A stretch of DNA of 64,000 nucleotides from Rheinheimera nanhaiensis E407-8 (GTDB lineage Bacteria > Pseudomonadota > Gammaproteobacteria > Enterobacterales > Alteromonadaceae): positions 124,001 to 188,000 of the forward strand of contig NZ_BAFK01000006.1 of NCBI RefSeq assembly GCF_000296695.1, in the 5' to 3' direction. The position numbers were made by a program, and so were the translations under genes. This document shows positions 2,650 to 47,568 of the stretch, piece by piece. The notes beneath the pieces are model-generated. The model was not told the DNA's origin. It saw only the letters and a program-made list of their open reading frames with translations, and made no database searches. Every line of letters starts with the position of its first letter. Position 1 is the stretch's first letter.

Positions 2650-3083
2650 CAAGCCCCCACAGCTTGCTGCTGAGTCTTTTGTGCCTGCAGCTGATAGCCT
2701 TTCTCACGCTCAGACACCGGTATTTGATCCCAGGCCCCTTTTATGGTCAGCAGAATTTCCATTACTTCATCCAGCTTGGCGATACTTTTTTCGCGGCTGG
2801 CCTGAATCAGGTGATTAAGCATAAAGTCATAAAGTGAGAACAGGTTATCTGAAATCTCGCCCGCACTCATATCTAACGAGCCCTGCAGCGACGAGATGAT
2901 AGAAATCGCTTTGCTGATAGCGCCGGATTTGCCGGCATAATCTTTACGTTCAATACAGCCTTTGGCTTTGGCCATGTTTTCCAAAGCACCTTGCATTAAC
3001 AACTGAATAACACGGTGTGGATCGGCAACGGCCAGGTCATCTTTAATACCAACGGCTTTATAGGCTTTAATTCCATAACTCAT
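2649..3083 (-). CDS. fliS: Flagellar export chaperone FliS (flagellin chaperone)
   Basis: 144 residues, beginning MSYGIKAYKAV. It shows the FliS pattern: an N-terminal YKxV-type segment, ADPHRVIQLLMQGAL in the first helix, and LYDFMLNHLIQAS in the third. FliS binds the C-terminal helices of flagellin in the cytoplasm, prevents premature polymerisation and hands subunits to the export gate. The ATG at 3083 is preferred over a GTG at 3095 because GGAGAG sits five bases ahead of it. It follows fliD by about 11 nt and overlaps the FliT-like gene by one base. It probably serves the four flagellins encoded just upstream. Confidence 0.93.
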   Translation of the reverse strand: MSYGIKAYKAVGIKDDLAVADPHRVIQLLMQGALENMAKAKGCIERKDYAGKSGAISKAISIISSLQGSLDMSAGEISDNLFSLYDFMLNHLIQASREKSIAKLDEVMEILLTIKGAWDQIPVSEREKGYQLQAQKTQQQAVGA

Positions 3084-24976: not shown

Positions 24977-25051
24977 TGCCCCATAGTTAAATGGATATAA
25001 CGGCCCCCTCCTAAGGGGCAGTTACAGGTTCGATTCCTGTTGGGGCAGCCA
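24977..25051 (+). tRNA. tRNA-Arg (anticodon CCT)
   Basis: A 75-nt cloverleaf. Acceptor arm TGCCCCA/TGGGGCA with discriminator G and encoded CCA; anticodon stem GCCCC/GGGGC around loop CTCCTAA, giving anticodon CCT; T arm ACAGG TTCGATT CCTGT. Reads the rare AGG codon. Located 47 nt after flgT. Such genes are common phage and island attachment sites, but neither flank shows an integrase or a repeated 3' end. Confidence 0.95.
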
Positions 25052-45258: not shown

Positions 45259-45660
45259 ATGGCAGCAAATAAAATTTCTCTGGCCGACTGGCAGGCACAA
45301 ATGAAGCCTGAAGGGCAAACAGCTGCAGTGCAAACCGATGCAAATCTGGTTTATAGCACCGACAGTGGCCGCATTACCTCAGACAACACAGCAAGAAAGC
45401 CTACCGGTGAAGCTTTTTCTGATGGTGCTGTACGCATTAGGCGCGAAACCAAGGGCCGCGGTGGCAAAGCGGTGCTAACCATTAGCGGCATTGCCAAACC
45501 CCATGACGAACTGGTGCAGTTAGCAGCGAGGCTTAAGAAAAAATGCGCCTGCGGTGGCGCAGTAAAAGACGGCGTTATTGAAATACAGGGTGATAAGCGC
45601 GAGCTGGTAGAGCAGTTTTTAAAGGCAGAAGGGTTTAAAACCAAATGGGCCGGCGGTTAA
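45259..45660 (+). CDS. yciH: YciH-type translation initiation factor (SUI1/eIF1 family)
   Basis: 133 residues. N-terminal linker (LVYSTDSGRITSD), then the SUI1 fold with VRIRRETKGRGGKAVLTISG, LKKKCACGGAVKDGVIEIQG and the end VEQFLKAEGFKTKWAGG. In E. coli YciH affects start-codon fidelity and stress-time initiation. Divergent from the GAF gene. A structured element follows. Confidence 0.93.
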   Translation: MAANKISLADWQAQMKPEGQTAAVQTDANLVYSTDSGRITSDNTARKPTGEAFSDGAVRIRRETKGRGGKAVLTISGIAKPHDELVQLAARLKKKCACGGAVKDGVIEIQGDKRELVEQFLKAEGFKTKWAGG

Positions 45661-45679
45661 TTATCTGGAGTAAACCTCT

Positions 45680-45797
45680 ATTCTCTGACGCACCACAAGA
45701 AGAGAATCGGATTGCTCTAAGCTAACCGTTGAAGCCCTGGACGGGCTGAGACGAGCCCCCAGGGAAGGGTTTACGGCGTGTTAGCGTGAGCAATCCG
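45680..45797. ncRNA. Candidate structured RNA or palindromic element between yciH and the M28 peptidase gene
   Basis: Nested pairing: a 7-bp hairpin ATTCTCT/AGAGAAT (45680-45686 with 45701-45707); directly after it a closing stem CGGATTGCTC/GAGCAATCCG (45708-45717 with 45788-45797, 10 bp perfect); inside it GCTAAC/GTTAGC (45721-45726 with 45780-45785); and an apical hairpin CCCTGG/CCAGGG plus GGGCT/AGCCC (45735-45764). A T-loop-like GGTTCGACTCC follows at 45797. No open reading frame. No known RNA recognised; strand unknown. It may be a mobile palindromic repeat. Confidence 0.5.
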
Positions 45798-45830
45798 GTT
45801 CGACTCCGAAGCGCAGAGCTTTATGCCGTC

Positions 45831-47504
45831 TTACTTTACCCCTTCACGGTTATACGGCTGACCAAACACATCATGGAAAAAGCTGCTTTTTAACCAGTAA
45901 GGCCGCTGCTCGGTATTGGCCACATCCAGCGCGATATTAAAATTAATATCGGCAAAAATAGCACCGAAGTCATAGCGTATTGCACCGTAGTCTTTGATCA
46001 GGCTTGGAATATCGTCCGACGGCTTATGGTAATGCTTGGCAAAAAAGCTGGCCCATACCTTGCCGCCGTCCTGCTTGGGATCCTGCGATTTAAAGCCGGT
46101 CATTAAAAACACCGCCGGTACGCCCTTTTTCACCAGGGTGTAGTGATCTGAGCGGGTAAAAATGGCCTGCTCCGGCATAGGATCGGCGCTTAAGGCAATG
46201 CCCTCTTTGGCAGCAGCTTGCTCAACCACTTTACCTAACGACGAGTGATTAGCACCAAAAGCAATCATATCGGCAAAGGGGTATAGCAGCACTGGCATAT
46301 CCAGGTTTACATTGGCAACCAGTTTATCGATAGGCCGGGTTGGGTTATTGGCAAAATAGTCGGCGCCCAGCAACCCCTTTTCTTCACCGGTTACCACTAA
46401 AAATAAAATCGACCGCTTCGGTTTTTCCGACAGCTGGGCAAACTGACGGGCCGTTTCCAATAAAATGGCCACGCCGGCCGCGTTATCCATAGCGCCGTTG
46501 TTAATTTTATCTTCGCTGCGTAAATCGTTGCTAAAACCAATATGGTCTGAGTGCGCGGTTATCACCACATACTCATCTTTAAGCTTCGGATCTGAGCCTT
46601 CCAGTACCGCCACCACGTTGGGGCTGCTGATATCTTCGTGCTGGCTGCTGCGGCTGAGTGTCGCCGACACGCCAAGCTCAAAGCCTGCCGGGCCCTTGGG
46701 CGCATCTAAAGCTGCAAAGATAGCTTCAAGCGACATGGGAGCTTTGGCAAAAAACGCGGCTGCTGCATCCGGGTGCACATAAGCGCCGGCCTTTAAATTC
46801 GGGTAGCTTTCAGCTGGCGTGCCATCTTTTTGCAGCCACTCCATTGATGGGGTGTTTAAATACAGCAAACTGCTGGCATAAGGCCGCACTTTTTCTTGCT
46901 TCGGCGTGTGTAGCGTAATAATACCCACTGCACCGCGCTCGGCGGCCAGGCGGGTTTTCAGGCTGGTTAAATGCGCCGCTTCTTCGCTGGGCAAGCTGTC
47001 GGGGCGGCCAGATAGCAGCACCACTATTTTGCCCGCCACATCTAAATTGGCGTAATCGTCCAGGCCGAACTCTTCTGAGACCAAACCATAGCCGGCGAAC
47101 ACTAATGGCGCCGTCACGTCAGTGTTAGCAAACTGCAAACTGGGGCCGGTAAAAAAGGCCTTGGGGTAAGCCAGCTCAGTGCTTACGCCATCAACATGCA
47201 GGGTAAATTTGGCGCTGTCTTGCGCCAAACGGGCTTTTCGCAGTGGCACCCGCTGCAAATAGCTACCATTGTCGCCCGCCGGTTTCAGCCCCAGCGCCTG
47301 TAATTGGGTGGCAATGTATAACGAGGCAATTTCATGCTCGTTACTACCGGTGTCACGCCCGGCCAGCGCATCTGCGGCCAGAAACTGCATATGGGCTTCA
47401 ATGGCTGTGGCACTGGCCGTGGTTTTAGTTGGGCTAACGGGTGCTGTCGCCGTGCAACCTGCCAGGCTTAATGCGGCTGCGATAAATACAACAGTGTTCT
47501 TCAT
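45831..47504 (-). CDS. Exported M28 family metallopeptidase
   Basis: 557 residues from the ATG at 47504 (AAAGGA ahead). Signal peptide with lipobox AALSLAGCT. A PA-like insert (about 125-260) precedes the peptidase part, where zinc ligands appear as VVITAHSDHIGF, GAMDNAAGVAILLE, VTGEEKGLLGADYF and VNLDMPV. Likely an aminopeptidase in the outer membrane or periplasm. First gene of the stretch with the amidohydrolase proteins. Confidence 0.92.
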   Translation of the reverse strand: MKNTVVFIAAALSLAGCTATAPVSPTKTTASATAIEAHMQFLAADALAGRDTGSNEHEIASLYIATQLQALGLKPAGDNGSYLQRVPLRKARLAQDSAKFTLHVDGVSTELAYPKAFFTGPSLQFANTDVTAPLVFAGYGLVSEEFGLDDYANLDVAGKIVVLLSGRPDSLPSEEAAHLTSLKTRLAAERGAVGIITLHTPKQEKVRPYASSLLYLNTPSMEWLQKDGTPAESYPNLKAGAYVHPDAAAAFFAKAPMSLEAIFAALDAPKGPAGFELGVSATLSRSSQHEDISSPNVVAVLEGSDPKLKDEYVVITAHSDHIGFSNDLRSEDKINNGAMDNAAGVAILLETARQFAQLSEKPKRSILFLVVTGEEKGLLGADYFANNPTRPIDKLVANVNLDMPVLLYPFADMIAFGANHSSLGKVVEQAAAKEGIALSADPMPEQAIFTRSDHYTLVKKGVPAVFLMTGFKSQDPKQDGGKVWASFFAKHYHKPSDDIPSLIKDYGAIRYDFGAIFADINFNIALDVANTEQRPYWLKSSFFHDVFGQPYNREGVK

Positions 47505-47568
47505 CGGTTTTCCTTTAAACAGCAGTGCCAGCATAGGCTGGCACTGTTTTTACGGGCAAAAGCGCAGC

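Follow-up and report, generated by a model that had tools for sequence, protein, structure and literature searches.

The window analyzed here, a 64,000-nt stretch of Rheinheimera nanhaiensis E407-8 (contig NZ_BAFK01000006.1, positions 124,001 to 188,000), contains a 170-nt spacer between two convergent genes of the ORF list, a plus-strand gene ending at 45660 (45259–45660) and a minus-strand gene ending at 45831 (45831–47534), which an earlier reading of the sequence (hereafter, the first-pass annotation) had named yciH and an M28 peptidase gene, respectively. Copy alignments and a profile match place the conserved extent of a repeat element at 45704–45801 on the plus strand, with the yciH stop 43 nt on its 5′ side and the peptidase stop 29 nt past it. 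A structured element had been reported over 45680–45816; such an element is present, with its conserved part limited to ~45704–45801. Folding of 45660–45840 gave z scores of −5.2 on the plus strand and −3.0 on the minus strand, and none of 200 shuffles was equally stable on either strand.

Several candidate identities were set aside. ARAGORN found only a tRNA-Arg (24977–25051) in the window, which rules out a tRNA or tRNA remnant in the spacer. A plain intrinsic terminator is ruled out by the absence of a U-run directly after the hairpin, and the first-pass annotation had correctly read the missing T-run directly 3′ of the structure in this way. An integron attC site, prompted by the arms GCTAAC/GTTAGC, was set aside as improbable given the attC consensus. 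In the Rfam search that the first-pass annotation had proposed, the window copy matched no Rfam family at gathering scores, CsrB, RsmY and Ysr224 included; at E up to 10, two chance-level matches were returned and TwoAYGGAY was unreported.

A dispersed palindromic repeat of ~100 bp has 32 copies in this genome, and the element is one of them. The copies were detected with a profile (R1) built from 36 copies, and the window copy is the match G000:C50:169699-169807 (window 45699–45807); a DNA search of the same genome, with E up to 10 allowed, returned 27 matches. Only 2 of the 32 copies overlap a predicted ORF. This many dispersed copies rule out a single sRNA gene, and they are the outcome that the first-pass annotation had named as speaking against its proposal. 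Most copies in the genus are ~98–109 bp long, and seven carry an insert of ~70 nt in the first apical hairpin (H1, below); the H1 insert is what sets locus L247 apart from L240 and L242.

Beyond this genome, a DNA search of 98 genomes found matches in 41, namely all 31 genomes of the genus and 10 of 67 others. R1 matched 51 of 147 family genomes (20 of 52 genera), 36 of 198 Pseudomonadaceae genomes (5 of 19 genera) and 44 of 274 class-wide genomes (39 of 222 genera), with 230 of the latter giving no R1 match. The exact core pattern matched at least 120 stretches of named genomes, and among the 80 matches listed were Rheinheimera, Arsukibacterium, Xanthomonas, Stenotrophomonas, Marinobacter, Microbulbifer, Cellvibrio, Alcanivorax, Zobellella, and Sodalis. 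The subfamily core of the window copy, judged against the named copies that share it, suggests a Rheinheimera-like host. The window copy was found in none of 50,697 phage and none of 72,556 plasmid records, a Pseudomonas copy in no phages and two plasmid records, and a Xanthomonas copy in the same two plasmid records. Phage or plasmid cargo was ruled out on this near absence.

The three-way junction and its folding strand

Alignment of the copies supports a fold made of a long outer stem and two short hairpins. In the 36-copy alignment, RNAalifold predicted 31 pairs, 22 of them with double changes; after one pair was added, pairing held in 95.7% of cells, and none of 500 shuffles reached any of five measures. 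The first inner-stem model drawn from these copies was later superseded by the three-way junction. We then used 60 copies of a broader set (46 of the 106 short-H1 copies were left unaligned), for which RNAalifold gave the junction previously proposed, with the outer stem, an H1 with two covarying closing pairs, and an H2 with a UUYAC bulge. Here 27 of 33 pairs were double-changed, 93.5% of cells were paired vs 62.1% in shuffles, and the sequence of the outer stem varied from copy to copy with its pairing kept. Three of the five measures were reached by none of 500 shuffles, while pairs with a double change (69 of 500) and further pair types (6 of 500) set the 60 copies poorly apart from shuffles because the columns are so variable. 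A competing inner stem was paired in 58 and 49 of the 60 copies at its two positions and had no double changes. The three-way junction predicted from these alignments is well supported by strong covariation, the absence of which in homologues the first-pass annotation had named as a refutation. By eye, two copies in the own genome (L008 and L022) share the same core, and their outer stems differ yet are still complementary.

In the window copy, the outer stem (45704–45717 with 45788–45801) has 14 pairs, one of them G-U, and 12 of the 14 are double-changed in the 36 copies. The perfect 10-bp closing stem described at first pass is part of it (45708–45717 with 45788–45797). The inner 6-bp stem is likewise present as GCTAAC (45721–45726) and GTTAGC (45780–45785), as placed with the 36-copy alignment and the folds of the window copy. 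Alignments and folds place H1 at 45727–45753, with GGA at 45739–45741 and two closing pairs for which the broad set shows covariation, and H2 at 45755–45777, with a UUUAC bulge and GGA at 45763–45765. Folded alone, the window copy reaches −56.9 kcal/mol in its own fold vs −45.7 kcal/mol in the covarying junction. The 11-bp apical hairpin with a bulge seen at first pass belongs only to this lone-sequence fold, as 36 and then 60 copies favor two separate apical hairpins. The proposed 5′ hairpin (45681–45686 with 45701–45706) overlaps the outer stem by 3 nt, is missing from the minimum-energy fold, and has arms that vary among copies; the T-loop-like GGTTCGACTCC consists of the last part of the outer stem and adjoining local sequence. 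Overall, the strong fold and the closing and inner stems of the original observation hold up, and its apical hairpin, 5′ hairpin and T-loop do not.

The base pairs also reveal which strand folds. Across 26 outer pairs in 118 copies of the broad set (of 125, 7 were dropped because their arms were poor), we counted 199 G-U vs 76 A-C combinations, with G-U in excess in 77 copies, A-C in excess in 11, and ties in 30. This excess indicates that the plus strand is the folding strand, either as RNA or as single-stranded DNA, the latter of which would produce an identical bias. The ratio was 42:16 in antisense copies and 33:12 in sense copies, and because the excess is equal in both, sense transcripts of the neighboring gene cannot be its sole source.

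Kinship with YPAL and placement at gene ends

The core and fold of the repeat match those of the Yersinia repeat YPAL/RU-2, so that its description at first pass as something not yet described was largely wrong. Against the printed RU-2 sequence (168 nt; PMC2759123, Table 1b), nhmmer with the database size set to 4 Mb gave E values of 2.3e-10 (profile A3) and 3.6e-7 (profile A1), and alignment A4 shows that RU-2 holds the core of the repeat. Folded alone, RU-2 adopts the same junction at minimum energy, with both GGA hairpins, although its outer stem loses register after 6 pairs and is shifted from there on; pairwise BLAST of RU-2 with the window copy was weak (31 nt, 77%, E 0.35). Both repeats occur as many dispersed intergenic copies. 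At 168 nt, RU-2 is longer than most genus copies (~98–109 bp), and we therefore call the present repeat YPAL-type rather than YPAL proper, an identity that these sequence comparisons support well. The hosts named for YPAL in one review are Yersinia and Erwinia carotovora (PMC2229807), and its copies in Yersinia have been counted, with three matches given for E. coli (PMC2847712); the Sodalis copy of the present repeat was absent from the 5,426 E. coli genomes searched. Pae-1 of P. aeruginosa (PMC2267715) was weighed as a possible counterpart of the repeat. REP and REPIN sequences resemble the present repeat in being intergenic palindromes by gene ends, often in opposed pairs, but REPs span 20–40 bp and are tagged at one end by GTAG or CGTC (PMC3733652), whereas the present repeat spans ~100 bp and has, by eye, no such end tag.

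The copies lie near gene ends. By a simple gene caller, the 32 own copies are convergent in 13 cases, sense in 12, antisense in 6, and divergent in 1, and 59 copies elsewhere are convergent in 23, sense in 14, antisense in 12, divergent in 2, and unassigned in 8. The broad set (n = 118) divides into 29 antisense, 26 convergent, 22 sense, 19 edge, 12 inside an ORF, and 10 divergent copies, with no bias of orientation relative to neighboring genes. At the yciH-M28 spacer itself, the 28 readable loci of the genus, the window included (L264 and L268 were not readable and are left out), comprise 5 with a forward element, 8 with a reversed element, and 15 without one; at L253, the reversed element is without its two hairpins. 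An extra gene lies between the two flanking genes in 8 of the 15 element-free loci, and in these 8 the lack of the element was judged by text pattern and printed ends only. Since orthologous spacers vary to this extent, an RNA specific to yciH, one of the options offered at first pass, is unsupported, and what survives of those options is the palindromic element, dispersed and structured at the RNA level.

Both orientations recur at orthologous sites. The loci retrieved include eight sets in which orthologous sites are occupied, and seven of these sets show both orientations; when seven pairs were re-aligned, six were reversed between collinear flanks, and one (L053/L092) had the same orientation. 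At the yciH-M28 spacer, the near flanks gave no signal for either inversion of the whole spacer or insertion of the element alone.

A rival reading of the repeat, which we regard as unlikely, is a mobile element acting at the DNA level, with the plus-strand hairpins recognized as single-stranded DNA by a trans-acting transposase and the GGA loops serving as its signal rather than as a CsrA site. Dispersal to 32 copies in one genome would fit such an element, as would the unbiased orientation in the broad set. Of 19 pairs of opposite-strand neighbors within 500 nt (from 130 rows of the own-genome, family, and Pseudomonadaceae lists), 18 point apart, as REP-type dimers do (PMC3733652), and for YPAL, filled and empty sites are reported along with target duplications that vary in size (3–26 bp; PMC2229807). 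One ISAs1-family element, on plasmid pDCA, holds two copies inside its ends, but no transposase consistently adjoins the copies, and six of seven ISAs1 loci examined were without a copy. The ORFs between two wider pairs (L184 and L079) look metabolic by eye, plasmid and phage records hold almost no copies, and the loop consensus, which recurs in both hairpins, is that of an RNA-binding protein; all three weigh against a DNA-level element.

The pDCA copies (L298, 1590–1693 on the minus strand and 2975–3081 on the plus strand) sit just inside the ISAs1-family ends and point outward, and the element is bounded by inverted ends of 17 bp and has a target duplication of 10 bp. ISAs1 was rejected as a general carrier, with pDCA the only case among the seven loci, and the other copy pairs showed neither ISAs1-like ends nor a target duplication. 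The wider pairs were likewise rejected as transposons, as the intervening ORFs in L184 and L079 are, by eye, metabolic enzymes.

Placement near stop codons, together with the long stable stem, could also be explained by a plain hairpin at mRNA 3′ ends that stabilizes or ends messages and replaces terminators, with no relation to CsrA. According to a 2006 paper on YPAL, that repeat reportedly stabilizes upstream messages. An influence of YPAL on message stability is also hinted at in a review, which places its targets across or next to sequences of dyad symmetry, terminators among them (PMC2229807). At the single yciH-M28 locus, the seven short element-free spacers divide between the two sides of this question: a clear terminator hairpin is present in three (L251, L262, and L265), as replacement would suggest, and none is clear in four. 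A plain hairpin would have no need for two apical hairpins that conserve GGA in their loops and covary in their stems, and we consider this account improbable.

GGA loops, CsrA, and related RNAs

The loops of the two hairpins carry a shared motif. Among 94 distinct matches, GGA hairpins number 1.83 per copy on the plus strand, 0.04 on the minus strand, and 0.55 in shuffles. After exclusion of the 17 matches without an anchor, GGA was found in H2 in 75 of 77 model matches and in H1 in 75 of 77. Because GGA in H2 was a fixed part of the pattern used to collect the broad set, only H1 provides an independent test there; in H1 of these 118 pattern-selected copies, GGA occurs in 113, ANGGA in 95, and a perfect CANGGAYG in 84. 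At least one perfect CANGGAYG is present in 29 of the 32 own copies and two or more in 14, with none on the opposite strand of any of the 32. GGA is present in both loops of the window copy, which is one of three copies in this genome without a perfect CANGGAYG. Six copies with the H1 insert have 2 to 4 GGA hairpins each. The starts of the two GGA are ~24 nt apart (alignment A1).

CANGGAYG is the consensus reported for RsmA, and RUACARGGAUGU that for CsrA (PMC7705225). Dual binding is possible with GGA motifs 10–63 nt apart, which suits the dimer (PMC7652899). The own genome has one csrA gene, and the canonical Csr system, sponge RNAs included, has been reported in Alteromonas (PMC5864184). 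We infer that the loops are best read as docking sites for CsrA. Several observations count against it, including a window copy that lacks a perfect CANGGAYG and is predicted to prefer another fold when alone, the broad set without orientation bias (22 sense and 29 antisense of 118), and the 230 of 274 class-wide genomes without an R1 match. A link between a YPAL-type repeat and CsrA was not found in the literature searched, mainly open-access papers. In P. putida KT2440, a "long palindromic region downstream PP_3547" and regions flanking ISPpu8 are bound by Rsm (PMC7937890); these were weighed as possible copies of the repeat.

Among described RNAs, the repeat resembles TwoAYGGAY (RF01731), which has a closing stem and two hairpins with AYGGAY loops, as does the present repeat, and which Rfam clan CL00106 joins with CsrB and RsmY. 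It was described as a probable RNA of unknown role that is not cis-regulatory, in a paper whose main text does not contain the word CsrA (PMC2864571). The Sodalis copy matches TwoAYGGAY on the same strand at 21.5 bits, below the cutoff of 43. This cutoff was reached in none of the 31 genus genomes, where the best match (37.7 bits) and most others lay away from R1 copies. A second set of elements in genus genomes (L337–L346) has a long stem and two GGA hairpins, with loops AUGGAU and mostly CACAGGGAUGUG; these elements account for sub-cutoff TwoAYGGAY matches of up to 37.7 bits, at G000:C55:22950-23078 in the own genome and at six more places. Ysr224 (RF02770) matches the Sodalis copy at 82.9 bits (cutoff 70) on the strand opposite the GGA hairpins; at L179 (7247–7352, minus strand), it covers the other strand of a repeat copy. 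Ysr224 is reported to rank among the most prevalent sRNAs (PMC9029176), a prevalence that may stem from the dispersal of a repeat.

These relatives raise the question of whether the copies are independent small RNAs, each transcribed from its own promoter as a CsrB-like sponge, which we consider very unlikely. Ysr224 has been detected as an RNA in Yersinia, the fold resembles TwoAYGGAY and hence a clan that includes CsrB and RsmY, and the strand bias extends to antisense copies, all of which would agree with such transcription. However, the Ysr224 match sits opposite the strand of the GGA hairpins, and the own genome has csrA together with a weak CsrB-like match that is separate from the repeat (L237, G000:C48:163026-163337, 36 bits vs a cutoff of 71). 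CsrB and RsmY, like the repeat, have several GGA hairpins per RNA, but they are single sRNA genes.

Proposed function and implications

We favor, as a somewhat probable account, a YPAL-type repeat whose plus strand folds into a three-way junction with two GGA loops, such that transcripts entering it would gain a 3′ structure able to dock CsrA. Mechanistically, the repeat would insert near stop codons, frequently between convergent genes, where it may replace an ordinary terminator hairpin. Any transcript reaching the repeat would acquire a very stable 3′ structure, potentially able to block 3′ exonucleases, and the two GGA hairpins ~24 nt apart could dock a CsrA dimer. The outcome would be either a message with a CsrA-bound 3′ end or a small CsrA titrator.

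A broader proposal is more tentative and, on balance, doubtful: a mobile, orientation-switching RNA repeat may supply CsrA docking sites at gene ends across much of the Gammaproteobacteria, where its insertion and flipping would rewire Csr/Rsm ties, and YPAL, TwoAYGGAY, and the present repeat may form one superfamily.

These results tie a Yersinia repeat to a motif placed by Rfam in one clan with CsrB and RsmY, and give the repeat a covariation-backed fold, a candidate protein partner, and a range across many Gammaproteobacteria. Annotations of Ysr224 may count copies of a dispersed repeat instead of one sRNA gene. If CsrA does bind, the mobile repeat would represent a hidden load on this global regulator, or a source of targets for it, and could plug genes into the CsrA network.
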